DNA from: Bacteroidales bacterium
Lineage (GTDB): Bacteria; Bacteroidota; Bacteroidia; Bacteroidales; P3
Length of the DNA: 64,000 nucleotides
Reading direction: 5' to 3'
NCBI GenBank assembly: GCA_017479385.1
Contig: JAFVCE010000004.1
Span: 1-64,000 of the forward strand
The translations under genes and the position numbers were made by a program. This document shows, piece after piece, positions 859 through 63,760 of this stretch. The notes beneath the pieces were generated by a model. That model was not told the DNA's origin and did no database searches. It saw only the letters and a program-made list of their open reading frames with translations. The first letter of the stretch is position 1; each line of letters begins with the position of its first letter.

Positions 859-942
859 TAACTGCCTGAACCATAGGCTTTGTTCGACCTCAACACGACC
901 CTAACCCCTCCCTAACCCGACCTCAACCCTGAGAATGAGGCT
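859..942 (-). repeat. Dispersed ~81-bp phased repeat, copy R1
   Basis: Member of a family aligned by eye with copies at 14404-14486, 19798-19869 and 54277-54357. Read on the minus strand it contains degenerate 11-bp units (consensus near GGTCGTATTAA) and ends with TTCAGGCAGTTA. The plus strand, which is the likely read-through transcript of the preceding gene, is C-rich and G-poor. Confidence 0.75.
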
Positions 943-4884: not shown

Positions 4885-4931
4885 CACCGAGTTAAGACCC
4901 TATTAAGGTCGTATCAACATCGAGTTATCAA
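4885..4931 (+). repeat. Phased 11-bp repeat array R8
   Basis: Four consecutive 11-bp units at 4885, 4896, 4907 and 4918 (for example GACCCTATTAA and then GGTCGTATCAA), overlapping TTATCAACA repeats and ending 28 bp before the GTG start of the ppGpp synthetase gene. Confidence 0.65.
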
Positions 4932-7867: not shown

Positions 7868-7909
7868 CAGTTGACCAATATTGTATAAACAAGCTGCAAG
7901 GATATGATT

Positions 7910-10900: not shown

Positions 10901-13900
10901 GTGCCAGGCAGCGTGAACCTCTACGCCAGCAGCACCATTTGGTCAATACCTACGGGTGCCTTCGTTCTCGACGGCAGCGAACCCCTGCTCGACCAGAGCA
11001 GTTGGGTTACCCACAACGACCAATTCTCGATAAGCTCGGCCGACATCTACCACCTTGTGTTCTACTGGCACAATGATGGTACCAGCGGCACCCAGCCTCC
11101 CGCAGCTGTCGACAACATACAGGTGCTTATGAACACCTGCCCGGCCCCAATCAACTTGCAAATAAGCAACATCACCGCCACTACCGCCACCGCCACCTGG
11201 ACCCCCATTGGCACCGAGTCGGCCTGGATTGTGCGTGCCGGCAGCTTTGTCGATACCGCCTATGTGGCAACCTACGACTTCACGTCGCTCGAACCCTCAA
11301 CCACCTACCAGTTCAGCGTCACCGCTTTCTGCGACTCCGACGACCAGTCTATCCCCGTTAGCACCTATGCCACCACGCTCTGCCAAGCCGTGTCGCGCCT
11401 GCCCTACACCTACGGCTTCGAAGACGCATCGGCCTCTGGCTCTTCGGCCGATATTAACCCCTGCTACACTCGCCTCTCGAGTTCCTCGACCCGCTACCCC
11501 TACCCATCAACTACCGCTGCCACAGGCACCTATTCGCTCTACTTCTACGCCTCGATGTCGCAGTATAGCTGTCTCGTCCTGCCCGAATTCACCACCCCCA
11601 TCGACAGCCTCGAAATCATGGTCAGCGCTCGCCTCTCGGGCAACTACGACGACGTCAACCTCCGCATCGGCGTGATGTCTGACCCCGACGACTTCTCGAC
11701 CTTTACCGAGCTCTACTCCGAACCCGTCTCGTCGACCGATTTTAACGAATATATCTACTCCCTCAACAACTATCACGGCGACGGCGGCCGCATTGCCATC
11801 GCCCTCAAAGGCAACAGCACCTCGTCGGGCTATGCCTACATCGACGACATCTACGTCGGGCTCATCCCGTCGTGTCCGCGCGTGTCGGGCGTGTCGGTGA
11901 GTTCGATTACCACCCACGAGGCCACCGTGTCGTGGACTGGCAACGACCTGGTGTCGGCCTGGTTGGTCGAGTATTCGCGCTACCCATGGGGCGACGACGA
12001 GTCGCGCTACCAGTCGCGCATGGCCACCACCCCCACACTCGACCTCACCGACCTCGACAGCAACGCCACCTACTACCTGCGCATCCAGGCCGACTGTGGC
12101 CTCGATGGCTCCTCGCCCTACACCTACACCCAGTTCACCACCCTGCCCTATATGCCCACCCTGCCACCGTTTACCGATGGTTTCGAAGACAGCGCCTCCT
12201 ATGCTGGTTGGGTCATGGTCAACATCGATAGCAGCTATAACCACTGGAACATCGGTTCGGCTACCAGCAACGGCGGTTCGAAAGCCCTCTACGTGGCCCC
12301 GCCGCGTCGCGACACCTGCTCCTACACCCTCAACAGCGGCTCCAACGTCTACGTCTACCGCGAGTTCCTGCTCACGGCTGGGCGCTATGTGGTGAGCTAC
12401 GACTACAAAGTGGGTGGCTCCTCGTCTGACTATATGCGCGCAGCCGTGGTGCCTGTGGGTTCGCGTATTGAGGCTTCGTCGTCGTCGTATAGCTCGTGGA
12501 CCATCCCCTCGGGCGGCATTAGCATCGATAGCAACAGCACGGTCTACACCACCAACGGCTGGCACCGCCGCTACACCGCCATCAACATCCGCCAGGAGGG
12601 CCGCTACTACTTGGTGTTCTACTGGCACAACACGTCGTCTTACTACTCCACTCCCACGCCCCCAGGTGCCTGTATCGACAACGTGAGCGTCGCGCCCAGC
12701 AACTGCCAGCCTCCCACCGGCCTCAGCGTTAGCGCTGTGAGCGGCACCACCGCCACCGTGGGTTGGCTCGAAGGCGACCAGTCGCAGTGGACTGTGGGCC
12801 TCGCCAACAGCGTCAACGAATACCTCGTCAATACCAATAGCTACACCTTCAGCAACCTACGCCCGCTTTCGAACTACACCTTCAACGTGCGAGCCGTGTG
12901 CGGCCCGGCCGACACCAGCGCAGTGGCTTCGGCCTCGTTTGCCACGCCATGCCCCGTGGTTGCCGAGTCGCAACTGCCGCTCTACGAGGATTTTGAAGAC
13001 TATAGCGCCGCCACCACCGCCGAAATCGACCGCTGCTGGCATCGCTACACTTCGGGCGACCGCTACTACCCCTTTGTCACCTCCTTCTACCACTATTCGG
13101 GCCAAAAGAGCCTCAACTTCCCCAACACCTACGACTGCTTCGTCACACTGCCCGACATCGATGTCGAGTTGGCCCGCATGCAGCTCTCTTTCGTCACACG
13201 CTCGCTCTTCGACCGTGGTGTCGACATCGAGGTAGGCGTTATGACCGACCCTGACGACGTGAGCACTTTCACGCTGGTCTCCACCGTCGTCTCCGACACC
13301 GTTTGGCGCCCGGTAACCATCTACTTCAACGCCTACACAGGCCCTCACGGCCACATAGCCATACGCGGCAACCACGTGAGCGCCTATATCGACAGCGTGG
13401 TGGCCGAGATAGCCACCGGCTGCCCTGTGCCAACCAACACCCGAGCCTCCGAAATCGACGACACCTCGGCCCTCATCAGCTGGAACGGTTTGGCCGATAG
13501 CTACGTGCTGCAATACCGCACACTGGGCACCACCCAGTGGCGCGACGCTGGCACCAGCGCCAGCACCACCCACCGCCTCGGCGGCCTGCTGCCCATTACC
13601 TCATACGAGGTGAGGGTTAGTGGCGTATGCGACGGCGACCACGGCGACTGGGGTCTGCCCCACACCTTTGTCACCGCCGAAGCCGCCAATGGCTGCAACC
13701 CCGTGCAACGCTTCGAGATGGGCTCGGTGGCCAGCATTGCAGCCATGGTCACTTGGTGGTATCCCGACAGCGTTGAAGGCGCCACCTTCGAGGTGCGCTA
13801 CGGCCTCCGCGACTTCGATTTCGAATCGGGCTACATGGGCGACACCGTTGTGGCCGACACGGCCCTCATTATCGAAGGCCTCGTCACGCTTACCGACTAC

Positions 13901-14239
13901 GAGGTCTACTGCCGTGTGCTCTGCGCCGACGGCGCCACCAGCGCCTGGCTCGGCCCCATAGGCTTCCGCACCCTCGGCATCGACGCGCCGCAGTTGGGCG
14001 CCCTCGTCAGCCTCTACCCCAACCCCGCCTCGCAGAGCGTCACCATCGCCATCGAGCGCGCGCAGGGGCAGGTCAATATCGACGTGGTCGACCTCAATGG
14101 CCGCACCCTTATCAGCCACACCATGCCGGCCGCCGACAACCGCCTCAACCTCGACATCAGCAACCTGCGCCGCGGCGCCTACTTTGTACGCATCTATGGC
14201 GACGGTGTGAGCAGCGTCCGCAAACTGATAGTCAAATAG
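7910..14239 (+). CDS. Giant T9SS type A secreted protein with jelly-roll and FN3 modules
   Basis: 2,109 residues. I prefer the ATG at 7910 to that at 7904 because AAGGA at 7898-7902 is 7 nt from it. The signal peptide (MRRLFTLLTALAALFATAYG) is followed by alternating lectin-like 'choice-of-anchor J' sandwiches and fibronectin type III domains. The former open with motifs such as YTETFENASTYAGW (about residue 901), YTYGFEDAS (1164), FTDGFEDSASYAGW (1419) and YEDFEDYS (1690); the latter with CxxPxxLxVxxITxxxATLSW (205, 296, 580 and others). A region at about 384-575 is different and unassigned. The C-terminal 80 residues (LYPNPASQSV... RRGAYFVRIYGDG... RKLIVK) form a type A T9SS sorting signal, so the protein is exported and probably anchored to the surface. 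Ligand unknown; adhesion or glycan binding is inference. Confidence 0.88.
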   Translation: MRRLFTLLTALAALFATAYGQTFSYSCDFEDATENANWIFVGGSYTNQWAIGSGTNNGGSHALYISNDGGTTNAYTVSTPTAQLVFAIRTFALGVGEYNVSYDWNCRGQNNSDFMRVAMVPSSEAETLEAAESLAGFSRNSMPSTWVPLDGERALCNVTSWNTQQATFSVTESGEYSLVFVWLNNKTSGTQPPAAVDNLNITLNDCMTPVQLHVGNITPHEATLSWSGAAGSTYEVRYSKVDNVDSAIVATPNNYTQNTITLTSLSQSTTYYAWVRPGCNTEWQTFEAFTTALSCAPVSGARVEQVDRHAAFIRWTTGEGAAYEQNSVIVTYSADSVAPRTISTTNSYTFITDLTTAKSYTVDIQAICEQDTANPITLVVATPGCDSKIGDGSDSDYTHGPSTNYRYAVNKWIYTAEELNLPAGYIGSITLDCAREPRPSFSNLTPTYKYYMANTTKSSFSSGDDDIPASSFTLVATSTQHYVLGNNTIIFSTPFYYDGVSNIAIAFSISAPAWDSPWDVSPYFFYTTTTNYTGHYQHNDDIAAFADLERPTGGYSYHFGTSNKRPNVGFPVSCDDSSNCFAPLVAVVSVDHESATIAWSRISNNVPTRVEYKLQSASSWTLLRASTFDDTVALSGLDPNTAYEFRVTNLCGDSTQAGYAKTRTLCGIYTFPYTERFSNPEALNCWTLYGQSHSTSYGSGSLYQGSSATNYAIMPEVDVVFGGLQVNLDIYSSSRTNTYVIIGVVTDPDNPDSTFYPFSDTLRNTTNNTFETFEVPIRYGGPEGRMAFKIISRGYSVYIDNIRLMNPPTCFKVSNIAVANIGTTYASVSWTDTVNPGIGDWIVQVGDSAYMALSSPFLVTGLDSNRTYTLSVRALCAADDTADAVRGPSFTTLRASPARVPYTETFENASTYAGWENSNYGSNRWLIGSATNNGGTHALYISNDNSTYYYSTSNTSNTFAWRDFYLDAGDYTVSYDWKAMGERSTTGTNYDYMRVALVPGSVNLYASSTIWSIPTGAFVLDGSEPLLDQSSWVTHNDQFSISSADIYHLVFYWHNDGTSGTQPPAAVDNIQVLMNTCPAPINLQISNITATTATATWTPIGTESAWIVRAGSFVDTAYVATYDFTSLEPSTTYQFSVTAFCDSDDQSIPVSTYATTLCQAVSRLPYTYGFEDASASGSSADINPCYTRLSSSSTRYPYPSTTAATGTYSLYFYASMSQYSCLVLPEFTTPIDSLEIMVSARLSGNYDDVNLRIGVMSDPDDFSTFTELYSEPVSSTDFNEYIYSLNNYHGDGGRIAIALKGNSTSSGYAYIDDIYVGLIPSCPRVSGVSVSSITTHEATVSWTGNDLVSAWLVEYSRYPWGDDESRYQSRMATTPTLDLTDLDSNATYYLRIQADCGLDGSSPYTYTQFTTLPYMPTLPPFTDGFEDSASYAGWVMVNIDSSYNHWNIGSATSNGGSKALYVAPPRRDTCSYTLNSGSNVYVYREFLLTAGRYVVSYDYKVGGSSSDYMRAAVVPVGSRIEASSSSYSSWTIPSGGISIDSNSTVYTTNGWHRRYTAINIRQEGRYYLVFYWHNTSSYYSTPTPPGACIDNVSVAPSNCQPPTGLSVSAVSGTTATVGWLEGDQSQWTVGLANSVNEYLVNTNSYTFSNLRPLSNYTFNVRAVCGPADTSAVASASFATPCPVVAESQLPLYEDFEDYSAATTAEIDRCWHRYTSGDRYYPFVTSFYHYSGQKSLNFPNTYDCFVTLPDIDVELARMQLSFVTRSLFDRGVDIEVGVMTDPDDVSTFTLVSTVVSDTVWRPVTIYFNAYTGPHGHIAIRGNHVSAYIDSVVAEIATGCPVPTNTRASEIDDTSALISWNGLADSYVLQYRTLGTTQWRDAGTSASTTHRLGGLLPITSYEVRVSGVCDGDHGDWGLPHTFVTAEAANGCNPVQRFEMGSVASIAAMVTWWYPDSVEGATFEVRYGLRDFDFESGYMGDTVVADTALIIEGLVTLTDYEVYCRVLCADGATSAWLGPIGFRTLGIDAPQLGALVSLYPNPASQSVTIAIERAQGQVNIDVVDLNGRTLISHTMPAADNRLNLDISNLRRGAYFVRIYGDGVSSVRKLIVK

Positions 14240-14403: not shown

Positions 14404-14486
14404 TAACTGCCTCAACATCAAGCGTTATTCGACCTCAATACGACCTTAACCCCTCTTTAACACGACTTCAACACTGATAATCAGCC
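14404..14486 (-). repeat. Dispersed ~81-bp phased repeat, copy R2
   Basis: Aligns along its whole length with R1 (859-942) and R4 (54277-54357), sharing on the minus strand GTCGTGTTAAAGAGGGGTTA, then GGTCGTATTGAGGTCGAA, and an end GAGGCAGTTA. Units repeat every 11 bp. The plus strand is C-rich. Confidence 0.8.
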
Positions 14487-19797: not shown

Positions 19798-19869
19798 AAG
19801 GTCAAAGATAGGTCAAAGAGGGGTTAGGGTCGTATTGAGGTCGAACAAGCCTTGACAATCAGCCACTTA
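19798..19869 (+). repeat. Dispersed phased repeat, copy R3
   Basis: Contains GTCAAAGAGGGGTTA, then GGTCGTATTGAGGTCGAA and a right end with AATCAGCCACTTA, aligning with R4. It lies 43 bp after metG. Here the C-rich strand is antisense to metG, opposite to R1 and R2. Confidence 0.7.
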
Positions 19870-24901: not shown

Positions 24902-24911
24902 GTGTTTAGAT

Positions 24912-24956
24912 GGGTTAGGGTCGTGTTGAGGTCGTATTAACATCGGGTAGACATCG
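24912..24956 (+). repeat. Phased 11-bp repeat array R5
   Basis: Consecutive units GGTCGTGTTGA, then GGTCGTATTAA, then CATCGGGTAGA, in exact 11-bp phase, directly after the palindrome and 37 bp beyond the DUF4956 stop. The minus strand, the read-through transcript of DUF4956, is the C-rich one. Confidence 0.75.
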
Positions 24957-24992
24957 ACTGCCCTTCGGTCCCACCTCGACGGTGTGGCGAAT

Positions 24993-30995: not shown

Positions 30996-33900
30996 ATGAA
31001 ACGCTTTTCGATATACATAACACTCTGTTTATTAGTGGCTTGCCACTCGCTTGTGCTGGCACAAGGTGGCTGTTCCCCGGCCTTAGCCCATCTGAATGAG
31101 GGCTTCGAAGACTGGGGTTCGGGACTCGATTCCTGGCCTTCGTGCTGGTTCCGCTTCAACAATTTCGACGGGCAGTATCCACGCCTCTCTGCCGAGAATG
31201 CCTCGTCGGGTTCGACGTCGTTGATGCTCTCGTCGGGCACTGCCACCAACCATTTCACCCTCGCAGCCAGCCCCGAGATGCAGCCAACAGTTTTCGCCGG
31301 TACAACGCTGAGTTTCAAGGCTTACTCTACTTCGGTCGACGCTGTGCTCGAGGTGGGCTACTGTGCCGACACCGACTACACATCGCCAAACTTTTTTGTG
31401 CCACTGACAGAGGTAAGAGTCGACGAATCGGGCGTTTGGCAGACCTTTACCATTTCAATCACAGAGGGTTCGGGCCGCGTGGCATGGCGCATGAGACGTA
31501 GCCAGCAAAGTGGTACTCGCTTTTTCTATATTGACGATATAAAAGTTGCCCAGTGTGGCCTTGTCGATGCCACGATAAGCAATGTGGGCTCGGACCGTGC
31601 AACACTAATTTTCAACACTTTCGGGTCGCCAACCATGAGCCTCGACTACCGCGTAGAGGGAGCCTCGCAATGGACCCAATCTACAGGCCCAATAGTGTCG
31701 CCCTACCAGCTTGCGAACCTCACCCCCAGCAGCAACTACGAGGTACGTGTAGTGGCTTCGTGTTCGGGAGAGAATGACACTGCCCTGCTTTCGCTACACA
31801 CCTTTGCCAGTGGCAGTCTTGTGGTGCCTTATTGCGAGTCGTTCGAAGGGGCCGCTACGCTCCCAGCGGGATGGTTACGCCCAGAATATTCGTCGTCGCA
31901 ACTGGCCGATGGCACCAATATGGCTCCGGTAATGCACTATGGCAACAACTCGTTGAGACTCAAAGGTTCATCCATAGCCGACAGCTGCTCAACGCTGTTG
32001 CTACCGGCCTTGTCGCCCTCGGTTTCGGATGCCATATTCCACCAACTCAAACTCACTTTCTGGGCCTATTGTCTCACTGGAACCAACGTCCAACTCACTG
32101 TAGGCGTTGTCGAGTTTCCCGACGAGCCGTCGAGCTTTGTTCCGGTCCAGACCGTGAGCCTCGACGAAGTGGCTGTGTGGCAGCAATTTGTGGTCGACTT
32201 CTCCTCCTACACAGGCAGTGGCCGCTACGTGGCGTTGCGTGCCAGTTCGCCCATGGCTTTTCGCGAATGGATTTATGTGGACGACTTGCTCCTCTCGACA
32301 GTTGTGGCTCATAGCCAGCAGGTTGCTGCACGCACCAACACACAGGTCACTATCGAGTGGCAACTTTCGGGCACTGCTACCGGTATTCATATCGAATACG
32401 ACAGTGCTGGATTCGTCCGCGGAACGGGACACAGTGTCGACCTCCCCGCCAGTGCCACCTCCTACACAGCCTTAGGCATAGGTTCCAACTCGACTATCCA
32501 TTTTTGGATAGAGCCTGTCTACGCAGCCTCTAATCGCTGTGTCCCGGCGCCATTGGTGGCCGAGAGCAGCGACATGAACGTCGCCCCCTCATGGTGCGAA
32601 ACGTTCAGCCTCTACCACACCGGTGTTTACCCCGACCAGTGGGGGCGCCCGCTCATGGTCGATGGTTACCCAATAATCAGCAGCACAGCAGGCCTCGACG
32701 AGCAAAGCCTCGAGATGTACGCTTCGGCCCAGTCGGGTACGGCCACCATGGCCGTTCTGCCGAGACTGGATTACACCCCTGTCAACGACCTTTACCTCAA
32801 CTTTTGGGTCCGGTCAGGGTCGGGTCAAGGTCGTATTGTCATCGGTATGTTGCCCTCCAAAGACAACTATGTAGGCTTTACTGGGGTCGACACCGTAGTC
32901 TTTACCCAAACCGACGATTTCGAGTTCCACAGCATACCCCTCGCTTCCTACTCTGGCTCATATAGATACGTAGCTTTCAAGTTCGAAGAAACGGTGGGTA
33001 CTGGCACCCATTGTTGGATTGATGGAGTGAGCGTAACCACCTGCCAGGTGACCAACGTCCATCTTTACGACATAACCAACACCACCGTGACTCTTGTTTG
33101 GGATACAGCTGGTTCCGTTTACGACGGCAGTGGCGTGTGGGTTGAATATGCCCACAAAGGCACCCCCTTTGGTAATGGTACACGCGTCTTGGCCGACGAA
33201 GTCCCCTTTGTTGTGCCTGGCCTCACACCCAACACCGAGTATTCTTTCTACGTGTGGGGCAACTGCAACGCCACCAGTAACGACTGTACCCCCAACCGCT
33301 ACGACTGCCGAACCCTGCCCGAGCGCATACAGAATAGCTATTGCCAAAGTTTCGACCTGCCAGAAGGCTCTATGCCACCAGCCTGGCAACGCCCCGTGCG
33401 CTTCTATGGAGACCCTGTGGTTAATGCTACATCGTGCACCACACCAGGCTCGTTGCGAATGCACGCCACCAACGTCAACGGTGTGTGCTACGCGGTGTCG
33501 CCCATGATTGAGACCACCTCTGGCGTAACCATGCGAGACCTCAAGGTCACCTTCCGCGCATACAGCGACCTCTACGAGTGTCGCACTGCCACAGTCGATG
33601 TGGGCGTGATGACCCTCCCGTGGGACACCTCTACCTTTACCCTTATCGACACCTTTCGCCTGCTCTACCCCGGCTATTGGGAAGAGTGTGCCGTCGACCT
33701 CGCTCCCTATACCGGCACAGGCCGCTATGTGGCCCTGCGCTATCGCGAAACGGTAAACGACTCATACATCTACATCGACGAGTTCAAGGTTGCCCCCGAA
33801 ATGGCGAGCAACGTCCACGCCATAGGCATTACCAACCGTTCGTTCCAAGTGAGGTGGGATACCCTCGGCACCTTTTCGCCACAGGCCAAAGTCTATATCG

Positions 33901-36900
33901 AATACGGCCCTGCTGGGTTTGCCGATGGTAGTGGAACGCGTCTGCGTGCCACCTCGAACCCGATGACAATCAGCGGCCTATCGGCCAATACCAACTACGA
34001 GTTCTGCCTCACAGTTGAGGAGGGGCGCAACCATGCCGTCTGCCACCTCGACCACATTACCCTCCATACCTTGGCCAACAAGATGGAACCCACTTGGTGC
34101 TACGATTTTGGTAGTGACGATGTGGGTAGCAAAGCCATTGACTTCTACTACCCGGTCTATTACTACAACTTCCCACAGGTAACCGATAACGATATGCCAT
34201 ACAGTGGCAAAGGCATTTCGCTCTACTGTAATGCCCCAAAACATGAGGGCAACGACACACTTGGCCCAATCGAGCGAACAGTTGTTGTGGCCCCAATGCT
34301 CGAAACCGACGTTCACCAAGTGGCTATGGACTATCGCGTTTACGCCTACAACAGCTACACCAACCTCAGGGTAGGAGTGATGACAGACCCCTACGACCTC
34401 AGCTCGTTCGAGGAAGTAGATGTGCTCCGTAATACCTATGCTTACAATAACTACGATTGGTCTCAGTGGGGCTATACAGACCGCACCGTCACCTTTCAAA
34501 ACTACACTGGCAATGGCCGATACATAGCTTTTATACTCGAGCCATATTATCTGGATGGTTATGAGCGTGGCTCTTCCGCTTCAATCGATGCCATAGCCAT
34601 TCGCAATTGCCACCTCTACGAGCCCCGTGTGCACCACGTAACCCAAACCACAGCCACCGTCAGCTGGGACGAACCCACAGGGATACTCGCTGCCCCGACT
34701 GAGGTATGGTGCGAATACAAGAAGGTTAGCTATATGGGCGACCGCTTCGCGCCAGGCACCGGCACTCGTGTCAAGCTCGACTCGAACAACTACCTCATCA
34801 CTGGTCTCGAGCCGTCCTCGTTCTACTCGTTCCACCTCATTCCCAAGTGCGCCACCTCCGACCCCGAGTGCCAATTCACGGTAATACCTATATACACCCT
34901 CGACCCTCCTTTCACCGTGCCTATGCACGAAACGTTCGATACCGTGCCACGTGCCACTTGGCCACTCTATGGCTGGCGCCCAACAGTCAACGGGTGGTCA
35001 ACATACTACCTAATCGACTCGGCTCAGTACCACTCTGCCACCCACAGCCTCTTTACCTATACCAACAGTGCCAACTATGTGTTGCCCGACTTTATTGGCG
35101 AGAATCCAGACCCATGCACCTCGCTGAAGAACCTCGCCCTCAGTTTCTGGACCTACGACGAATATGGAAACAACAATCCACTGCTCGAAGTGGGCATTAT
35201 GGAAGATGCCTACGACACAACCACCTTCACCCGTGTGGCTACCATCAAATCTTGGCGTCAGCGCCAATGGGAGCGCCACAGCGTAGACTTCAGCAACTAC
35301 ACTGGCACGGGCAAGTATATCTGTCTGCGGTCGCTCACAAGTTGGTGGTTCCTCGACGACCTCAGTGTCGAGCACTGCATAGCCGACTCAATGCGCGTTG
35401 AGTGTATAACACCTTCGCAAGTGTCTATTTCGTGGGCATCGAGGGCGGTAGATTCTATGCTCGTGGTTTATGGCACCTCTCTTACAAACACAGACACGCT
35501 GCATTTGACCGAAAACCCCTATGTTATCAGCAACATCGTGCCAGATACGCGCTACTACTATCAGCTCTCGCCTCAGTGTGGTTGCGACAGCATTGGACTG
35601 GTCTATGCCGTCGACGACGACACCATCACACCATCGCCCTACATCGACTCTACACTCTGCGAGAACAACTATGCCGACTACCCATACTGCGAAAACTTCG
35701 ACTCATACGACATCTATGGCCGCGACCTGATGCCACGAAAATGGCACCGCTTTACAGGCTCCGACCTCGATTACCCTGCCCTCACAACCAGCTACTCCGA
35801 AACCTACTACCACTCCATAAAGTTCCACAGCTACACCTCGAGAGACAACCGAGCCAAGATGTCGATGGTGGTGCTTCCCGCACTCGACAGTGGCCTCATA
35901 AGCCAGTCGCACTTAATGCTGGACTATAACGTCCACGTCCTATACGGCCTTGCCCCAAACACCAGCCTCGAGGTGGGTGTGATGACCAACCCCAACGACT
36001 CCAACTCGTTCGAGCTCGTAGGCGAAATTCCATTCACCTACGCCACACAGGACTGGTATCAGGCAGTGGTCGACCTCTCGTCATACAGCGGTGAAGGGCA
36101 ATACATAGCCTTGCGTCTCGCACCACAAAACGCCCTCTACTACGGCTCCCATGAAGTAGAACTCTATATAGACAACCTGCAGGTAGCCCCCTGTGTGGTG
36201 AGCAACATCTACCACAATTTTAGTGCCGACAGTCTGCTCACCCTAACTTGGAGTGGGCAGGGCGCAGTCGCCCCCTACCAAGTAGAATACGGTCCACGCC
36301 ATTTTGCGCAAGGTTCTGGCACCGCCATAACCACTGCCGACACTTCTACCACCATTGCGGGCCTCGACCCGGTCATGTCATACGATTTCTACATCAGCCC
36401 CGCCTGCTCTACCTCGGCTCCATGCAAGCCATACAACATCAACCACGAGATAGACCTGCCCTACTGCCAGGACTTTGAGCACGACCTCTACTACCTGCCA
36501 CAGAACTGGCATGAAATCAACAGCTACTCATACATCAGCTATGTCAACGACCGCTTCGACAACCAAACCATTGCCTTGGTAAGCTATAGGGGTATAGCGC
36601 AACTGCCCACGCTGGCTGTCAGCGACATAGAAAACGTTTACCTCTACCTCGACACCAAGTACGATGGCTACGACACGCTCCCAATATATGTCGTAACAAT
36701 GGGCTACAACAACGAGGTGCTCGACACTTTGGCCACCTTGAACCGACATGGCAACCACTGGTTCGATACCTGCTTCCGCCTCAGCTCCTACCACGACACC
36801 ACTCGTCGCATTGCCTTCGCGCGTCCTAACGGCTCCGCCTGCAGCTTCGACAACGTTAGCCTCAGCCGTTATCCAACCCCATACAACGTGCATTGGACCA

Positions 36901-39900
36901 CCCAAAGCCTCGACTATAGAGACATCTACTGGGACAGTCCTGCCCCACTTACTGGCTTCAGCCTCGAGATAGGCCCTCAGGGGTTCTACCCGGGCGAGGG
37001 CGCCGGCACGGTTATCCCCATATCAGAGTCGGGTCACCTTCGTATTAACATCGACTTTAAGACCGATTCGGTCTACGATTTCTACTTCATCGACCCCGAC
37101 GGGCACTACACCTGCCAGCGCTTCACCTTCACCGCACCCTCGCGCCGCACCCTCCCCTACTGCAACAACTTCAACCTCAGCACCGACCCTCGCGAGTTCG
37201 TACACGAAATCGAGTGGCATTACATTCGTTCTGCCGACTGCTACGCCCCTTTCCAGGGAAGTGTATACGACGGCTGGTACAGGCGTAACATTGACAATGG
37301 CATTGTGTTCGGTTCAAGCAATGCCTTGTGCCCCACACAGTGGGCCGTACTGCCAGAACCCGATAGGAACTACAACGTGAGCGACCTATACCTGCACTTC
37401 GACCTTTACTCGCAGTACACCACCGTCCAACGCCTCGTTGTTGGAGTGCTCACCGACCGCGACGACACCAACACCTTTATCCCCATCGACACCGTTTTCA
37501 ACACCTCGCCCAACAACTGGCGACACCACTCTATAAAGTTTGCCTCCTATGCCGACACTGGTCGCTTCGTAGCCCTGCGCTGGCTGCCAGATTCTACAGG
37601 CGGCAACATCATTTCGATAAGTAACGTGCTCTACGACCACTGTCCGCACCCAGAGTTTCGCCACATTGGCGCAACTACGATAGAGGCCTATGTCAAAACC
37701 GATTCGGTAGCCGACTACTATATAGAACACACCAAATTGTATGGCGACATCAACTACATCCACGCCACATCGAATTCGTACATAATCAGCGACCTCGAGC
37801 CCTACTGGCGCCACTACTTCTCGTCGACCTGCGATTCGGGTTCCAGCAGCTGCGTCTCATCCCAGTCTCTATACCCCTACCCAGCCTGGCCGCTGCCCTA
37901 TTGCGAGGACTTCAGCTATGGCAACGCCGCATGGCAGTTCAAGCATAATTATAATAATGGCAACGAGAGCAACTACCCTCGCCTCGTCGACTTTCCAAAT
38001 GATGGAAACACCGTGCTCGACTTCTACGCCCCCGACGAGCGTAACCTGCCCGTAATGGCCACCCTGCCCGACTTCGAGGTGGACTCGGCCAAGCGGCTCT
38101 ACCTCGATTTCGACCTCTACTCCGATTTCGATACTAACAACGCCATCGTTGTCGGCATGGTCTACGACCGCTTCGACACCACTTCGTTCCGTCCACTCGA
38201 CACCCTGCGAGTCGAGGCCGATAACCTGTGGCGACACAAGAGCGTGAGCTTTACAAACTACGACGGACGCAGCCGATGGGTCACCCTCAGCCTGCTCTCG
38301 CCCGACTATGGACACCACATCTATGTAGATAACCTCTATGTGCAAACTTGCCCCTATCCCGACCTAACCATTGCCAACCACAACACCGTCAAGGCCTTTG
38401 TCCCCACCGGCGAAACCGATGTCGACTACTATGTGGAATACGGACGCCGGGGCTACCGCCGTGGTGTTAACTACGACGCCATTGTGCACGTAACAACCAA
38501 CCCCTTCTACATCACCGACCTGCTCGACACTACCGACTACGACTTCTACCCCATGTGCGACAGCCTCGGCTCGACCTGCCGCTTGCCACAGCAGCTGCGC
38601 ACCTCGTTAGAGCTGCCGTTACCCTACTGCCAGAACTTCGACCAAGAACAGCAAAACACCATGCCCCAATACTGGAACCAGCGCAGCAACAACCCCGCCT
38701 ACCCCTCGGTGGGCACTGGCCTGGCTGCGAGCGAACCACAGCAGTTCACCTTCTTCTCCGACTATGCCTACCAGTTGCCCGAAATCGCCATCCTGCCAGG
38801 CTTCATAGTCTCTGAACTAAGCCAACTCAACTTCACAGGCAACATCTATTCGGCCGACATCGACAACCTCAACGCCATAATCTTCGGCATAATGCCCGAC
38901 ACGCGCGACGCCCTATCCTTCGTCGCTCTCGACACTGTTTGGCCCGACACCTCCTTCCAGTGGTCGTCGTTCCACGCCTCGTTGCGCAACACCACGCTCA
39001 CCGACGGTTTCCCCGCCATCAAGTTCCACTGCCCCACGCTCCATGCGCAGATGGTGTTAGACAACCTTGCCGTCGACTCGTGCCAAACCGCCGACCTCTC
39101 GCTCGTGGGCTACAATGTGGCGCGGCTCACCACCGTCGATAGCCTCTTTGTGGACTACTATGTCGAGTACGGCCCACAGGGATTTGTCCAAGGCAGTGGC
39201 ACGACCCTCCATGTCGACGCCTCGCCCTACCTCATCACCCTCGACGCCAACGACAGTGCTGCAACCCCCTACGACTTCTACTTCAAGTGCGACCCCACCA
39301 CCACCTCGTGCCGCGCAGCAGCTACGTTGGTGGCCTCGCCACGACCGGTGCCTATGGGTTTCTGCGAGAACTTCGACTCGGCCTCTTCGCCCAACACCCC
39401 CTTCTCGCAACACTGGCACTCACTGGTGCGGTCGGCCGAACTGGAGCAGACCTACGTCCGCCCCGTGGCCCACGCCTCGCACAGCCCGCAGCGCTCGGTC
39501 GAGCTTGCGGCAGCCGCTCAAAGTTCGGCCTGCCTCGTCATGCCGCAGCCCGACATCGACACCATTCCCCACCTCTTGCTCTCGTTCTACCTTATGGCCG
39601 AACAGGCCGACGACGCCGAACTCGAAGTGGGTGTGCTCACCGACCGCTACGATATGCGCACCTTCATCCCTGTCAAACTAATCAACGCTGCCGCGTTCGA
39701 TACCTGGCAGCACGTGCTGGTTGGCTTCGATTCGTACACCGAGCAGGGCCTCTTCCCCGCCTTGCGCCTCTCGGCCAATAGCAGCCCTGTGGCCGTGGTG
39801 GTAGACGATATTCACTACTCCGACTGCGGCATTGCCGACTATGGTGTGACCCAAATTGCAGCAGACTCCATCACCATTGGCTGGCACAACTATGGCAACC

Positions 39901-42734
39901 CCACCGTAAGCCTCTACCTGCGCGAGAAAGACCTCACCTTCTACCCCACACTGCCGAACAAGATTACCTTCGCCGGCTTAGTGGCAGGCAACACCTACAC
40001 TTTCGACCTCATATTTGGATGCGACACGGCCGAGCCTCATGACTACTGCTCGACGGCCGACACGGCCACCTTTACCATCGTCACCCCAGCCATTAGTGGT
40101 GGGTGTATAGACTTTACCAATCTCTCCTCGCCCTCGGTGGTGGCCACAACGGGCACCTACAACAACCCCTATGCCCACTATGGCCTCGACCCCGACCGCC
40201 ACGTCGTTCTCTACGACGCACAGCAAACCGACCCCAACACCGGCGGCCTGCTACACGTCACCCCACCCAACGGCGGCCTCTCGGTGCGCCTCGGCAACTG
40301 GAAATCGGGGGCCCAAGCCGAGAGCATTAGCTACACTCTCGATGTAGACACGTCGAACTTCTCGGTGCTGTTGTTCAACTATGCTGCCGTGCTTCAAAAC
40401 CCAGCACACACTGAAGACGAACAACCCAAGTTGCGTATCGAGGTGCTCGACACCACGCTCCATGTAATCGATTCGCAGTGCGTCATTGCCGAGTTTGCGG
40501 CCAGCACGTCGCTGGGTTGGAACAGTAGTGCGAACTACGTTCTTTGGAAAGACTGGACCACCGTAGGCCTCAACGTGGCCCCCTACCACGGCCAACCTGT
40601 CATTGTGCGCATAACCACCTACGACTGCGCCCCCGGCGACCACTATGGCTACGCCTACTTCAGCCTCGAGTGTGCCAAGGGGTACATTGCCTCGTCGGCC
40701 TGTGGCTCGTCGTCGACCGCCACGCTCTACGGCATCGACGGTTTTAGCTACCGTTGGTACTCGGCCGACTCGCCAGCCACCATTGCCACCACCCAAGCCA
40801 TCGACGTGAATACCGACCAGGTGCGCACCTACTATTGCGAGCACCACTTCTTGGGCAACCCCAACTGCTACTTCACCCTGGCAGTCGATAACCGTCGCTT
40901 CTATCCCGTGGCACGCTATAATTATAATGTAACGCCCGACGATTGCCGCTACGTTGTCGACGTGCACAGCACGAGCTTCATGACCTTCGACGGCACCACA
41001 CCTGCCCCTGAGGTCGACCCGCTCGAACTGACGTTGTGGGACTTCGGCAACGGCCTGCAGTCGAGCAACCCCGACGATACCCTCGCCCTCGAGCCAGGCA
41101 ACTACGACGTGAGCCTCATTGTCTCGACACGCCACCAGTGTGCCGACACCGCCCACTTTACCCTCAGCCTGCCGGCCTACGTGCCCGACACCAACTACCT
41201 GGCCGATACATCCTGCCAGTTCACTCCCTACAGCCGCTATGGCTTCGCCCTGACGCCCGACAGCACCGACTACCGCACCTCGCACACCTACACCACAGCT
41301 GTGAGCAAAACCAATGGCTGCCCCATAATAAACAAGCTCCACCTCGCCCTCAGCCCCTACTACCACCTGCATCGCTACGACACCATAGAGATGGGTAACT
41401 ACTTTACTTTCGAGGATACAACGCTCACTTTGCCAGGTGTTTACGAAAGGCTCTACACAACTGTTGCCGCCGGCTGCGACTCGCTCATCACGCAACACCT
41501 CTCCATCGTCGCCCCCAAGTCGAGCTACACCGACTCGTGCCAGACCCACATCAACATTGTGCGTGGCGATACCCTTGTCGTTACCCCCGTGCCCTACGAG
41601 TTTGAACTCAGTGCCGACCGCCCTGCCCACGAGTACACTTGGCACCCAGGCCAGGGCCTCGACACCACCACGGCGCGCACCGTGAGGCTCACCCTCAAGC
41701 CCGATACCGTGGCCACACTCGTGCTGCACGTACTTTATAGCGACACCAACAACATTGTGCCCAACGGCGGCTTCGAACTTGGCGACACCCTCTTCTCGTC
41801 AGACTACACGCCTCTGCCAGCGCCCCACGTAGCCCCATCGGTGGCTACCCATAGTGGCACCTACGCTGTTGTCGGCTCGGCGTTCCTGCCTGCCTGCCTC
41901 GCCAGCGCGCCGGCCGCCCTGCTCACCTATCCGGTGGCCGATACGGCGCTGCGCCTCTACCACACCACGCTGGCCGTAGACCCCTACACCGACTACCGTC
42001 TGGCCTACCGTGTGGCCTCGCTGGCTCAGCCCGACACCGTGGCCCACCTCTGGACCGTGGGCGACCAAGAACTCGCCACGCCGCCCCTGCTGCCCGACAG
42101 CTGCGAGTGGACCACCGTCGTGGCCGACTTTGCCACTCAGGCCGACACACTGCTCCACATTGTTTTGCACGACACCTCCTACCTGCTCGGCAGCCGCGCA
42201 CCCTACGCCATCGGCCAACTGGCCATCTATCGCCTCTGTATGGCCGACGACACTGTGAGCCTACGCACCGAGTGCCCCGACTATGTCGACACCATAGAGG
42301 TTCAGCTCTGCCACGACTCGGTTTATACCTGCGACGATGGTTCAACCATCTCTGAACCAGGTGTATACACCTATTCCTTCACCACCGAATGGGGCTGCGA
42401 CTCTATCGTTACCATTCGCGCGCTCTATAACCCCTGCTGCTCCGACTACCTGCAGTTCCCCAACGCCGTGACACCCAACGGCGACGGGGTGAACGACCGC
42501 TTTGTGGTCGTCGGGCTGCTCGAAGAGTGGTGCTACCCGTTCAACGAGTTGGCAATCTACAACAAGTGGGGCGAGCGCGTCTACTACCGCAAAAACATAC
42601 GCTCCGACGCCGACTTCTGGGACCCCAACGCCACCAACAGCCCGACAGGTACCTACTACTTCCACTTCGACGCCACCGACCCCGACGGCTCGCGCCACGT
42701 GCAGCGCCGCGGCGTAATCGAGGTGATACGCTAA
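30996..42734 (+). CDS. Giant T9SS type B (CHU_C-type) modular surface protein
   Basis: 3,912 residues. The signal peptide (MKRFSIYITLCLLVACHSLVLAQ) is followed by about twelve tandem modules of 230-275 residues. Each opens with a motif like PYCExFD or PWCxxF (near residues 27, 277, 529, 782, 1030, 1306, 1562, 1819, 2052, 2299, 2539 and 2786), contains a jelly-roll strand pattern ending 'LEVGVMTDPxDxxxF', and closes with an FN3-like segment. A variant module starts near 3034, a PKD-like stretch (LWDFGNGLQSSNPDDTLALEPG) near 3346, and the end (FPNAVTPNGDGVNDRF... IYNKWGERVYYRKN... TGTYYFHF) is the gliding-motility-associated type B T9SS sorting domain. Exported and probably cell-surface or released; adhesin or glycan binding is inference. 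The start is set by promoter and signal peptide; a TTG 9 bp upstream is not used. Confidence 0.9.
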   Translation: MKRFSIYITLCLLVACHSLVLAQGGCSPALAHLNEGFEDWGSGLDSWPSCWFRFNNFDGQYPRLSAENASSGSTSLMLSSGTATNHFTLAASPEMQPTVFAGTTLSFKAYSTSVDAVLEVGYCADTDYTSPNFFVPLTEVRVDESGVWQTFTISITEGSGRVAWRMRRSQQSGTRFFYIDDIKVAQCGLVDATISNVGSDRATLIFNTFGSPTMSLDYRVEGASQWTQSTGPIVSPYQLANLTPSSNYEVRVVASCSGENDTALLSLHTFASGSLVVPYCESFEGAATLPAGWLRPEYSSSQLADGTNMAPVMHYGNNSLRLKGSSIADSCSTLLLPALSPSVSDAIFHQLKLTFWAYCLTGTNVQLTVGVVEFPDEPSSFVPVQTVSLDEVAVWQQFVVDFSSYTGSGRYVALRASSPMAFREWIYVDDLLLSTVVAHSQQVAARTNTQVTIEWQLSGTATGIHIEYDSAGFVRGTGHSVDLPASATSYTALGIGSNSTIHFWIEPVYAASNRCVPAPLVAESSDMNVAPSWCETFSLYHTGVYPDQWGRPLMVDGYPIISSTAGLDEQSLEMYASAQSGTATMAVLPRLDYTPVNDLYLNFWVRSGSGQGRIVIGMLPSKDNYVGFTGVDTVVFTQTDDFEFHSIPLASYSGSYRYVAFKFEETVGTGTHCWIDGVSVTTCQVTNVHLYDITNTTVTLVWDTAGSVYDGSGVWVEYAHKGTPFGNGTRVLADEVPFVVPGLTPNTEYSFYVWGNCNATSNDCTPNRYDCRTLPERIQNSYCQSFDLPEGSMPPAWQRPVRFYGDPVVNATSCTTPGSLRMHATNVNGVCYAVSPMIETTSGVTMRDLKVTFRAYSDLYECRTATVDVGVMTLPWDTSTFTLIDTFRLLYPGYWEECAVDLAPYTGTGRYVALRYRETVNDSYIYIDEFKVAPEMASNVHAIGITNRSFQVRWDTLGTFSPQAKVYIEYGPAGFADGSGTRLRATSNPMTISGLSANTNYEFCLTVEEGRNHAVCHLDHITLHTLANKMEPTWCYDFGSDDVGSKAIDFYYPVYYYNFPQVTDNDMPYSGKGISLYCNAPKHEGNDTLGPIERTVVVAPMLETDVHQVAMDYRVYAYNSYTNLRVGVMTDPYDLSSFEEVDVLRNTYAYNNYDWSQWGYTDRTVTFQNYTGNGRYIAFILEPYYLDGYERGSSASIDAIAIRNCHLYEPRVHHVTQTTATVSWDEPTGILAAPTEVWCEYKKVSYMGDRFAPGTGTRVKLDSNNYLITGLEPSSFYSFHLIPKCATSDPECQFTVIPIYTLDPPFTVPMHETFDTVPRATWPLYGWRPTVNGWSTYYLIDSAQYHSATHSLFTYTNSANYVLPDFIGENPDPCTSLKNLALSFWTYDEYGNNNPLLEVGIMEDAYDTTTFTRVATIKSWRQRQWERHSVDFSNYTGTGKYICLRSLTSWWFLDDLSVEHCIADSMRVECITPSQVSISWASRAVDSMLVVYGTSLTNTDTLHLTENPYVISNIVPDTRYYYQLSPQCGCDSIGLVYAVDDDTITPSPYIDSTLCENNYADYPYCENFDSYDIYGRDLMPRKWHRFTGSDLDYPALTTSYSETYYHSIKFHSYTSRDNRAKMSMVVLPALDSGLISQSHLMLDYNVHVLYGLAPNTSLEVGVMTNPNDSNSFELVGEIPFTYATQDWYQAVVDLSSYSGEGQYIALRLAPQNALYYGSHEVELYIDNLQVAPCVVSNIYHNFSADSLLTLTWSGQGAVAPYQVEYGPRHFAQGSGTAITTADTSTTIAGLDPVMSYDFYISPACSTSAPCKPYNINHEIDLPYCQDFEHDLYYLPQNWHEINSYSYISYVNDRFDNQTIALVSYRGIAQLPTLAVSDIENVYLYLDTKYDGYDTLPIYVVTMGYNNEVLDTLATLNRHGNHWFDTCFRLSSYHDTTRRIAFARPNGSACSFDNVSLSRYPTPYNVHWTTQSLDYRDIYWDSPAPLTGFSLEIGPQGFYPGEGAGTVIPISESGHLRINIDFKTDSVYDFYFIDPDGHYTCQRFTFTAPSRRTLPYCNNFNLSTDPREFVHEIEWHYIRSADCYAPFQGSVYDGWYRRNIDNGIVFGSSNALCPTQWAVLPEPDRNYNVSDLYLHFDLYSQYTTVQRLVVGVLTDRDDTNTFIPIDTVFNTSPNNWRHHSIKFASYADTGRFVALRWLPDSTGGNIISISNVLYDHCPHPEFRHIGATTIEAYVKTDSVADYYIEHTKLYGDINYIHATSNSYIISDLEPYWRHYFSSTCDSGSSSCVSSQSLYPYPAWPLPYCEDFSYGNAAWQFKHNYNNGNESNYPRLVDFPNDGNTVLDFYAPDERNLPVMATLPDFEVDSAKRLYLDFDLYSDFDTNNAIVVGMVYDRFDTTSFRPLDTLRVEADNLWRHKSVSFTNYDGRSRWVTLSLLSPDYGHHIYVDNLYVQTCPYPDLTIANHNTVKAFVPTGETDVDYYVEYGRRGYRRGVNYDAIVHVTTNPFYITDLLDTTDYDFYPMCDSLGSTCRLPQQLRTSLELPLPYCQNFDQEQQNTMPQYWNQRSNNPAYPSVGTGLAASEPQQFTFFSDYAYQLPEIAILPGFIVSELSQLNFTGNIYSADIDNLNAIIFGIMPDTRDALSFVALDTVWPDTSFQWSSFHASLRNTTLTDGFPAIKFHCPTLHAQMVLDNLAVDSCQTADLSLVGYNVARLTTVDSLFVDYYVEYGPQGFVQGSGTTLHVDASPYLITLDANDSAATPYDFYFKCDPTTTSCRAAATLVASPRPVPMGFCENFDSASSPNTPFSQHWHSLVRSAELEQTYVRPVAHASHSPQRSVELAAAAQSSACLVMPQPDIDTIPHLLLSFYLMAEQADDAELEVGVLTDRYDMRTFIPVKLINAAAFDTWQHVLVGFDSYTEQGLFPALRLSANSSPVAVVVDDIHYSDCGIADYGVTQIAADSITIGWHNYGNPTVSLYLREKDLTFYPTLPNKITFAGLVAGNTYTFDLIFGCDTAEPHDYCSTADTATFTIVTPAISGGCIDFTNLSSPSVVATTGTYNNPYAHYGLDPDRHVVLYDAQQTDPNTGGLLHVTPPNGGLSVRLGNWKSGAQAESISYTLDVDTSNFSVLLFNYAAVLQNPAHTEDEQPKLRIEVLDTTLHVIDSQCVIAEFAASTSLGWNSSANYVLWKDWTTVGLNVAPYHGQPVIVRITTYDCAPGDHYGYAYFSLECAKGYIASSACGSSSTATLYGIDGFSYRWYSADSPATIATTQAIDVNTDQVRTYYCEHHFLGNPNCYFTLAVDNRRFYPVARYNYNVTPDDCRYVVDVHSTSFMTFDGTTPAPEVDPLELTLWDFGNGLQSSNPDDTLALEPGNYDVSLIVSTRHQCADTAHFTLSLPAYVPDTNYLADTSCQFTPYSRYGFALTPDSTDYRTSHTYTTAVSKTNGCPIINKLHLALSPYYHLHRYDTIEMGNYFTFEDTTLTLPGVYERLYTTVAAGCDSLITQHLSIVAPKSSYTDSCQTHINIVRGDTLVVTPVPYEFELSADRPAHEYTWHPGQGLDTTTARTVRLTLKPDTVATLVLHVLYSDTNNIVPNGGFELGDTLFSSDYTPLPAPHVAPSVATHSGTYAVVGSAFLPACLASAPAALLTYPVADTALRLYHTTLAVDPYTDYRLAYRVASLAQPDTVAHLWTVGDQELATPPLLPDSCEWTTVVADFATQADTLLHIVLHDTSYLLGSRAPYAIGQLAIYRLCMADDTVSLRTECPDYVDTIEVQLCHDSVYTCDDGSTISEPGVYTYSFTTEWGCDSIVTIRALYNPCCSDYLQFPNAVTPNGDGVNDRFVVVGLLEEWCYPFNELAIYNKWGERVYYRKNIRSDADFWDPNATNSPTGTYYFHFDATDPDGSRHVQRRGVIEVIR

Positions 42735-42766: not shown

Positions 42767-42812
42767 GGGTTGGGGTCGGGTTAAGGAGGGGTTAAGGTCG
42801 TATTAACATCGG
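42767..42812 (+). repeat. Phased 11-bp repeat array R6
   Basis: Units GGTCGGGTTAA, then GGAGGGGTTAA, then GGTCGTATTAA in exact 11-bp phase between convergent genes. The C-rich strand is downstream of the minus-strand porin-like gene, beyond its hairpin. Confidence 0.75.
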
Positions 42813-42892
42813 AGTTTGAACAAGTTTTCAACAGCGTTAAGCCCTTTTTGAACCGCCCGCCTCTCGACCCCGATACGAACACAATAATATGA

Positions 42893-52910: not shown

Positions 52911-54197
52911 ATGGCTGCAACGAGGCTCCGAGCCCTATTCACAGGCTGGGTGCGCGAAGCTGCCACCCTGCTCACCGGCACCGCCGGCGCGCAAGTTATC
53001 ACGGTGGCCGCCTACTTCCTGCTAACACGCCTCTACACGTCCGACGACTTTGGCCTATTCGGCATTTTTTGCAGTTATATTGAGGTGCTAACCATAGCCT
53101 CGACGTGCAAATACGAGCTCTCTATCGTGGCTTCGGCCGACGAGCGGCAGGCCTCGGCCGTGGCAGGCTTTGCCCTGAGGCTCAACGCCGCCTTCTCGGT
53201 GGTGCTGCTGGCTGCGGTGGGGGCAATGGTAGCCCTCGGAGCCCTCCCGGGCAAGACCGCACAACTCGGCGCGCTGGTGCTGCTCATACCGCCGCTCATC
53301 TACTTCAACGGCACCTCGCGGGTCTACGAAAACCTCTTCAACCGCCGCCGCCGATACGCCAAAATAGGCCTTTCCGAGACTGTCAACGCCTCGTCTACCG
53401 TGCTCGTCAAGGCCGGTATGGGCTGGCTCGGAGCTGCGCCTGCTGGCCTGCCGGTTGGCACCGTTGTGGGGCGTATGGCAGGCAACATCGTCTACCGTCT
53501 TGGGCTGCGCCGCCTCGAGCTGCCACGAACCACGGCCGCCGAGCGCCGCCAAGCAGCTGTCAACAATCGCAACTACCCACTCTATGTTGCACCTAAAGAC
53601 CTGGCTAACAGCCTCTCCTATAATCTCCCCATGCTCTGGATGGCCCACTATTTCGACCTCACCGAGGCCGGCCTCTTCACCCTGGCCCTCACTTTCACCT
53701 TCCGCCCCATCAACGTTGTCAACGTGGCCATAGAGAAGGTGCTCTACGCCCGCGCCGTCGAGCACCGCACCCACGGCACGCCCATGTGGCCCGAGGTGCG
53801 CCAATTTCTCGCCACAGCCCTCGCCATAGCCCTGCCGGTTGGGCTGCTGCTCTTCCTCTTTGCCGACCCACTGTTTGCCTTCTTCTTTGGTGCCAAATGG
53901 GGCGCTTGCGGCTACTACGTGCGCTGCCTGTTGCCATGGGTGCTGGTGATGCTGCTGACCAACTCGTTGATGTATGTCAGCAATGTCTTCTCGACCCAGC
54001 GGGTCGAATTCGTTTTCTGCCTCGTCCTGCTCGGACTGCGAGCCGCCGCCGTGGTGGCGGGCATAGCGCTGGGCAGTTTCCGCACCGGCATACTGCTCTT
54101 CTGTGTCGTCTCCACGGCCGTAAGCGCCGCCCTGCTCTGGTGGTACATCCACCAAATAGCTCGCCACGACCGCTCCCTCCACAAAACAACAGAGTAG
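52911..54197 (+). CDS. Polysaccharide flippase-like protein (Wzx/oligosaccharide exporter type)
   Basis: 428 residues with about 12 hydrophobic segments. The N-terminus (REAATLLTGTAGAQVITVAAYFLLTRLYTSDDFGLFGIF) is characteristic of MATE-like polysaccharide flippases that move undecaprenyl-linked glycans across the inner membrane. Other conserved-looking parts are ALTFTFRPINVVNVAIEKVLY and LPVGLLLFLFADPLFAFFFGAKW. Isolated from any glycosyltransferase cluster here. It sits next to an acylation operon that may modify the same surface glycan. Confidence 0.85.
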   Translation: MAATRLRALFTGWVREAATLLTGTAGAQVITVAAYFLLTRLYTSDDFGLFGIFCSYIEVLTIASTCKYELSIVASADERQASAVAGFALRLNAAFSVVLLAAVGAMVALGALPGKTAQLGALVLLIPPLIYFNGTSRVYENLFNRRRRYAKIGLSETVNASSTVLVKAGMGWLGAAPAGLPVGTVVGRMAGNIVYRLGLRRLELPRTTAAERRQAAVNNRNYPLYVAPKDLANSLSYNLPMLWMAHYFDLTEAGLFTLALTFTFRPINVVNVAIEKVLYARAVEHRTHGTPMWPEVRQFLATALAIALPVGLLLFLFADPLFAFFFGAKWGACGYYVRCLLPWVLVMLLTNSLMYVSNVFSTQRVEFVFCLVLLGLRAAAVVAGIALGSFRTGILLFCVVSTAVSAALLWWYIHQIARHDRSLHKTTE

Positions 54198-54276
54198 AAA
54201 TCGGCCCACTCCGAACCTCAACAAAACGACTTGGCTCGTGGTCTCTGATTCTTACTCCAAGAGCTTCTGCAACTGC

Positions 54277-54357
54277 CTGATTTACAGGGTTACAGTCGTG
54301 TTAAAGAGGGGTTAAGGTCGTATTGAGGTCGAATAAGCCTTATGGTTCAATCAGTTA
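54277..54357 (+). repeat. Dispersed ~81-bp phased repeat, copy R4
   Basis: The clearest copy: GTCGTGTTAAAGAGGGGTTA, then AGGTCGTATTGAGGTCGAA, then GCCTTATGGTTCAATCAGTTA at the right end. Left end CTGATT and right end AATCAG form short inverted ends, and AACTGCCTGATT (54271-54282) repeats an arm of the palindrome at 24853-24901. The C-rich strand lies downstream of rpoC. Confidence 0.8.
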
Positions 54358-54592
54358 CATCTCGAATTTTGGCCCTTTTTGCCCCCCTCCAAGTCCCGAT
54401 TTTTGCCCCTCCGAACTTCGTTTCCTCACCCTCCTAACAACGGCACTTGTTCCATGCGAACTCGACTTCATCCCCTCCAAACCAAGAATTCGCTCCATTC
54501 GTATTGTGATTTTAGGACCTCTCGTTCCCATAGTTAGCCCGTTCTTGCCCCTCCTCATACCTCTCTTTGCTGCAACTCCATGGCGAGGCAAA

Positions 54593-54655: not shown

Positions 54656-59161
<4,506 letters not shown>

Positions 59162-63699: not shown

Positions 63700-63747
63700 C
63701 GGGTTGGGGTCGGGTTAAGGTCGGGTTGAGGTCGGGTTGAGGTCGGC
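63700..63747 (+). repeat. Phased 11-bp repeat array R7 between rplJ and rplL
   Basis: The most regular array: GGTCGGGTTAA and then copies of GGTCGGGTTGA in 11-bp steps. On the minus (transcribed) strand it is C-rich and is followed directly by a hairpin (CGGCTC/GAGCCG, 63685-63701). Confidence 0.8.
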
Positions 63748-63760
63748 CTCAGGGCGACTT

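Follow-up and report, generated by a model that had tools for sequence, protein, structure and literature searches.

Evenly spaced, helically phased intergenic repeats in a Bacteroidales bacterium: possible wrapping sites for DNA gyrase at convergent gene ends

Elements of the repeat family in the analysed DNA

The window, as we denote the entire 64,000-nucleotide stretch of Bacteroidales DNA that was analysed, contains at 54277..54357, on the plus strand, an element that separates two converging genes (52950-54197 on the plus strand and 54656-59161 on the minus strand). The profile match to this element covers 54286-54357 and its core, GAGGGGTTAAGGTCGTATTGAGGTCGAA, occupies 54305-54332; the stretch matching the phased arms described below (-100 to +160 of the core) is 54216..54476 on the plus strand, the phasing being an average over copies. 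Three further elements of the same kind, here called type A, are located between co-directional genes, namely, at 859..942 (minus strand, profile match 859-930), 14404..14486 (minus strand, profile match 14404-14475) and 19798..19869 (plus strand, profile match 19800-19869). These are the four long copies described in the initial annotation, and they lie where it placed them, with the sequence blocks that it quoted and the internal 11-bp period common to all. The repeat is real, but the count of four was too low: a profile derived from these copies finds nine places in the window. In particular, a type B element, GTATTAACATCG ... GAACAAGTTTTCAACAG, is present at 42768..42846 (plus strand) and a type C element, a longer 11-bp array adjoining a hairpin-like inverted repeat, at 24907..24958 (plus strand), both in convergent regions; another type C array, at 63703..63757, and a weak member of 19.7 bits, at 4888..4927 (both on the plus strand), lie between co-directional genes. 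The statement of the annotation that all copies are intergenic holds for the four strong ones but not for a weak match (27.2 bits) at 32803..32845 on the plus strand, which falls within the ORF 30996-42734 and may be coincidental. This ORF and the ORF 7904-14239 are very long, contain repeated motifs of ~50 nt and probably encode repetitive surface proteins. Genes were called throughout with our own script rather than with a curated caller.

Copies in the genome

The repeat is not restricted to a few copies: a genome search yields 174 matches of the 26-bp core pattern and, with at most 3 mismatches allowed, 113 of GTCGTGTTAAAGAGGGGTTA (0 in the reversed control). The profile built from the four copies gave 56 matches, nine of them in the window, when applied to the window together with contigs C1 and C14 (456 kb); iterated with C5, it gave 104 matches, corresponding to 97 places, in 841 kb, and 0 matches in either a Markov-1 shuffled or a reversed version of these 841 kb. 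Applied unchanged to held-out contigs (400 kb), the profile found 32 places, for a total of 129 in the 1.24 Mb examined out of a genome of 2.28 Mb. Extrapolation from 129 places in 1.14 Mb (with the region C3:1-98,000 excluded) gives ~240-250 elements for the whole genome. A model search of the whole genome, with a model made from 28 copies (out of 48 listed among 126, with coding-like and out-of-register copies excluded), produced at least 151 matches; 150 of 1218 candidates were scored, so this figure is not a copy count.

Among 119 other genomes of the genus, the core pattern was found in two, with one match each. One of these matches (L072, in G073 C34) has the flanks of the window's copy at 19798 and so probably belongs to a misplaced contig of the same species as the window; the other (L073), as read by eye, is inside a gene of the sister species considered below. 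Judging by eye, the match at C14:35421 and L073 appear to encode one protein motif, which suggests that some of the coding matches are coincidental; taken as a set, the 19 coding matches include 0 within 3 kb of other elements, with 10.0 expected. An exact 33-mer of the repeat had no match in a genome-contig collection that may omit this genome itself.

Strict core and phased arms

Most of the strong copies are of type A, with a variable left part, a strict core and a right part that is fairly conserved up to ~+79; types B and C have GGTCGTATT in common, followed by AACATCG, and differ in the outer parts. In 87 type A copies, which were chosen for matching at least 23 of the 26 core letters, 20 core positions are at least 97% identical; the copies were detected by similarity, so this conservation is partly a product of selection. 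Intergenic self-similarity in the genome stands out at lag 11 (41 arrays) and lag 22 (11 arrays), with 0-2 arrays at every remaining lag between 6 and 25.

When the copies are aligned on the core, their A/T content oscillates with a period of ~11 bp well beyond the conserved letters. Measured on 59 intergenic type A copies, this phasing has an amplitude of 0.128 on the left (-120..-45) and 0.137 on the right (+65..+140), the null maxima over 300 jitters being 0.067 and 0.065, respectively. The pairwise letter identity of the left arm (-110..-60) is 0.259 vs 0.257 with letters shuffled inside the A/T and G/C classes, and that of the right arm (+80..+110) is 0.323 vs 0.301, a slight increase suggestive of some letter preference there, chiefly for C. 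The phasing extends into flanks whose letters hardly agree between copies, which supports the interpretation of the 11-bp period as a protein-binding array that was put forward in the initial annotation. On the right side, the phasing fades out by ~+200, and on the left it is weak past ~-80 (0.040 at -108..-64, for a fixed period of 11.0 bp in the 87 copies); in types B and C it is weaker, and in the coding matches it is seen near the core only. On the top strand of the convergent copies, the left arm has phased A and the right arm phased T (bootstrap intervals exclude zero), that is, the arms are arranged with two-fold symmetry; in 25 co-directional copies, the corresponding difference is not significant, so that the symmetry may follow transcription.

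The two strands are not equivalent. The dinucleotide YC is present on the top strand at +10, +32, +43, +76, +87 and +98 in 43-100% of the 87 copies, against a background of 14%, and on the opposite strand at these positions in at most 10%. The core has a G content of 0.34-0.41 and a C content of 0.07-0.11 overall (0.39 and 0.09 in convergent copies), and the C/G contents of the right part are 0.25/0.22 in convergent, 0.35/0.15 in same-strand co-directional and 0.22/0.27 in opposite-strand co-directional copies.

An RNA-binding array, also suggested in the initial annotation, finds no support in the folding energies, which are ordinary (mean z of -0.31 and -0.66 for the two strands, against mononucleotide shuffles, in 40 of the 87 copies), or in the orientation of elements in convergent regions, which is independent of operon length (29 of 56). 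Pairing between the arms of the same copy (10.06 of 22 positions) is indistinguishable from that between arms of different copies (9.98 of 22, sd 0.17); by arm pairing and folding, no stem-loop palindromes of the BIME/REP type were found, and neither were sharp-ended terminal inverted repeats, the complementarity of the consensus ends being weak. The window contains 0 Rfam matches above the gathering score.

Gene context and spacing

Among the intergenic regions of at least 60 bp (C3:1-98,000 is excluded from these counts and from the spacing nulls), an element occupies 67 of the 89 convergent, 34 of the 284 co-directional and 5 of the 90 divergent ones. By class, the 129 places comprise 68 convergent, 35 co-directional, 19 coding, 5 divergent and 2 contig-end ones. 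The co-directional gaps that harbor an element have a median length of 365 bp vs 126.5 bp for the empty ones, which makes available space one of the factors. In 24 of the 35 co-directional elements, the YC strand is the sense strand, and in 11 it is the opposite one; for strict type A co-directional elements, 9 of 25 are in the opposite orientation (P 0.23 vs even odds).

The elements are spaced along the chromosome evenly, beyond what the gene layout yields. The 123 spacings have a median of 8.3 kb and a coefficient of variation (CV) of 0.475, whereas regions drawn at random within each class have a CV of 0.883, with a minimum of 0.683 in 2000 runs; two spacings are under 3 kb, where this null expects 27.3 (minimum 17). 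The discovery set alone has a CV of 0.486 vs 0.969 under uniform placement, and the held-out set has a CV of 0.438 vs 0.966 (minimum 0.598). Moreover, the median distance to the nearest element is 2.4 kb for empty convergent regions and 7.5 kb for occupied ones, and both the co-directional elements (6.3 kb to the nearest element of another class; 3.6 kb for random ones, P 1.5e-4) and the coding elements (5.6 kb; random 2.8 kb, P 3e-4) keep away from the others. Against a strict spacing rule, eleven gaps exceed 15 kb (two of these begin a contig), and the longest one apart from C3:1-98,000, 31 kb in C14, contains five convergent regions. The region C3:1-98,000 itself (L049-L053) is a ~98-kb stretch of low GC content with 0 elements. 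The possibility of an acquired island was considered and rejected, because housekeeping genes are present, along with a second PheT that has 69% identity to the one on C5; the stretch is probably DNA from another congener that was merged into this contig.

The same build with other letters in a sister species

Among 98 genomes of the genus, including the present one, the closest full-length GyrA is that of G089 (89% identical; the next closest is 79%). This sister species has elements of the same build but with other letters, for example, GGATGGGTTCGGGTCGGGTTTGGTTCGGCCTTACATCGG, 29 of them in 240 kb, of which 16 are convergent, 8 co-directional, 2 coding, 3 at contig ends and 0 divergent, in a search whose profile was seeded from convergent regions and so may favor that class; one pair of elements is only 237 bp apart. 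In 27 of the 29 elements, the right flanks are phased (0.108 at +50..+130, null maximum 0.073), and the left flanks show an amplitude of 0.081 at -120..-40 (null maximum 0.059), the value at -100..-20 not being significant (P 0.07). Thus, the sister species matches the present one in the build, density and gene context of the elements, with other letters. The data on orthologous sites are weak and partly against positional conservation: among 92 reciprocal best hits, an element on the 3' side was found in both species for 5, in the sister only for 6, in the present genome only for 12 and in neither for 63 (P 0.037), and at 45 gene adjacencies conserved in the sampled parts of the two sisters, an element is present in both in 0 cases and in the present genome only in 2.

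A site for wrapping by gyrase and its rivals

The strict core, the phased arms, the ordinary RNA folding, the lack of covariation between the arms, the orientation independent of operon length, the location at convergent ends and the even spacing all point to DNA topology. Our leading, albeit tentative, interpretation is that the element is a site in double-stranded DNA that is wrapped or bent by a protein, most likely a strong gyrase site absorbing supercoils between converging genes. Each element would consist of a letter-specific core of ~36 bp flanked on both sides by helically phased, bendable arms; the complex that wraps or bends it would most likely be DNA gyrase, which the site would hold where positive supercoils collect, that is, between converging genes, sites elsewhere being frequent enough that few long stretches stay without one. 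The role of the family would then be the control of supercoiling domains. That gyrase is what acts on these phased, convergent-end sites is our inference. The genome encodes a GyrA with a C-terminal domain that carries a putative GyrA-box motif.

In E. coli, the gyrase motif is described (PMC6379681) as a 36-bp centre with two 47-bp arms and a G/C periodicity of 10.75 bp, and gyrase cleavage is found preferentially downstream of operons with high transcription; gyrase is described as wrapping DNA with a 10-11 bp periodic preference on either side of the 36-bp centre (PMC6379681, PMC12393610), and E. coli Topo IV as lacking such periodic arms (PMC10117906). Phased A/T-G/C arms around a ~36-bp centre, as in a strong gyrase site, are found in type A elements, and the two-fold symmetry of the arms in convergent copies is likewise in favor of such a site. 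The element resembles the Mu SGS and the E. coli Topo-Seq gyrase motif in the ~36-bp centre, the ~11-bp A/T-G/C periodicity of the arms and the location of sites downstream of transcription units, and differs from them in its hundreds of copies, strict letters and even spacing; its right-side phasing reaches ~+200, further than the 66 bp given for the E. coli motif. By eye, the cleavage determinants -4G, -2A, -1T / +5A, +6T, +8C (PMC10117906) agree at 4 of 6 positions in type A (GTAT/TGAG/GTCG) and at 5 of 6 in types B and C (GTAT/TAAC/ATCG), possibly through a chance match among core windows. Several observations speak against gyrase. The E. coli motif is described as depleted in AT-rich intergenic regions (PMC10117906); the core letters are stricter than the degenerate preference of gyrase suggests, although the copies were selected on the core; and the YC in 11-nt steps on one strand counts against a purely bending signal, which would not predict a strand bias. 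The same direction is taken by the lack of a significant A/T symmetry in co-directional copies, by gaps of up to 31 kb, one of them spanning five convergent regions, and by the convergent regions of further congeners, viewed below, in which no clear array was seen.

On account of the strict letters and the one-strand YC, a dedicated binder is the main competing interpretation, to be taken seriously, and a Rho site should not be dismissed. A letter-specific protein lining one face of the helix in 11-bp footprints, which would anchor the nucleoid, insulate converging genes or act as a roadblock between them, is on the whole unlikely, but it would fit the strictness of the core (in copies selected for it), the strand-specific YC every 11 nt and the change of letters in the sister species, as might occur with a co-evolving binder and site; 11-bp arrays in other settings in other Bacteroidales also fit. 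ParR and CarH occupy 11-bp footprints along one helix face. Like the element, parC of ParR and the CarH operators consist of 11-bp direct repeats, but they are single operators or partition sites, whereas the element forms a chromosome-wide set at gene ends; furthermore, such a binder does not account for A/T phasing that extends into flanks without letter identity or for the two-fold symmetric arms of the convergent copies. A transcription terminator for converging genes, either Rho-dependent, with C spaced 11-13 nt, or intrinsic, appears improbable. The location at gene ends, the regular top-strand YC in 11-nt steps, its sense orientation in 24 of the 35 co-directional elements and the hairpin-like repeats that adjoin type C and sister elements are all compatible with termination, but 11 of the 35 face the wrong way, 250 of the 284 co-directional gaps have no element, the folding is ordinary and a terminator would have no need to avoid neighbouring copies. 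Rho utilisation sites share C every 11 nt on one strand with the right part of the element; however, they are described as C-rich and G-poor (PMC6407284), the opposite of the G-rich, C-poor core, and differ from the element also in its mixed orientation and even spacing.

The mobilised miniature element envisaged in the initial annotation finds no support in the analysis. The dispersion of the copies and the rough complementarity of the consensus left end, TAACTGCCTGA, to the right end, TCAGNCANTTA, could indicate a small transposon whose ends are short inverted repeats, yet the arms pair at background level and do not covary, identity decays gradually without sharp ends, the copies strictly avoid each other and prefer convergent ends, and the sister species fills the role with other letters, all of which makes this origin very improbable. 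Hardly any probability attaches to a DNA-uptake or packaging signal: species-specific letters and an even spread would be expected of it, but it gives no reason for the preference for convergent ends, and the element is far longer and sparser than known uptake sequences. The BIME/REP repeats of enterobacteria similarly have many dispersed intergenic copies, and some BIME-2 are gyrase targets (PMC6379681); the element differs from them in having no paired palindrome, an 11-bp phased array and even spacing. Altogether, the terminator or Rho site, the miniature transposon and the uptake signal fit worse than a gyrase site or a helix-aligned binder.

Neither gyrase sites with phasing nor intergenic repeats in dispersed copies are new as kinds of element. 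In our literature searches, we found no description of this repeat, no report of an even set of sites at convergent ends with strict letters that change between sisters and, in the open-access literature, no paper on evenly spaced gyrase sites. Conceivably, although the odds are against it, the elements make up a chromosome-wide topology system, in which species-specific, jointly evolving wrapping sites divide the chromosome into units of ~8-9 kb, occurring at most convergent ends and, apart from these, far from the nearest other site, which would make supercoiling domains readable from sequence. If so, bacterial supercoiling domains would be marked by DNA sites open to counting, comparison across species and single deletion, and the sister species, which keeps the role with changed letters, would be a natural experiment in the joint evolution of sites and binder.

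Arrays in other Bacteroidales

In the genus, 68 of 119 genomes (the present one included) match a general pattern for 11-bp arrays, many of them with a distinct unit, and among Bacteroidales 52 of 247 genomes match at least once, few of them many times; this pattern presupposes TCG, and in some genomes its reversed control scores too (43 in G003, 29 in G010 and 25 in G031). In G321, from another Bacteroidales family, there are 33 matches of a GTCGTATTTGC array, and the 21 distinct loci are distributed as 11 co-directional, 8 divergent, 1 convergent and 1 coding. In five further congeners, no clear 11-bp array was seen in any of the 22 convergent regions viewed, out of 26, so such sites are not a requirement of the genus. 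Given that the G321 arrays sit elsewhere and that no clear array was seen in these regions, the convergent role is established for the two sister species only. The interpretation is not extended to every 11-bp array on account of the TCG built into the pattern, the scoring reversed control, the different context in G321 and the presence of 7- and 8-bp arrays in congeners.

Other tandem arrays were noticed in the course of this survey. In the congeners G079, G040, G014 and G093 (L106-L114, L121-L128, L133-L140), intergenic tandem arrays with periods of 7 and 8 are common, and those with periods of 9, 10, 12 and 13 are rare. Seven 11-bp arrays, mostly with different units, lie ~10 kb apart in co-directional and divergent settings in G078 C68:1-80000 (L129-L132). 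In G081, many 11-bp arrays are located at most ~75 bases from a contig start, as if the assembly broke there.
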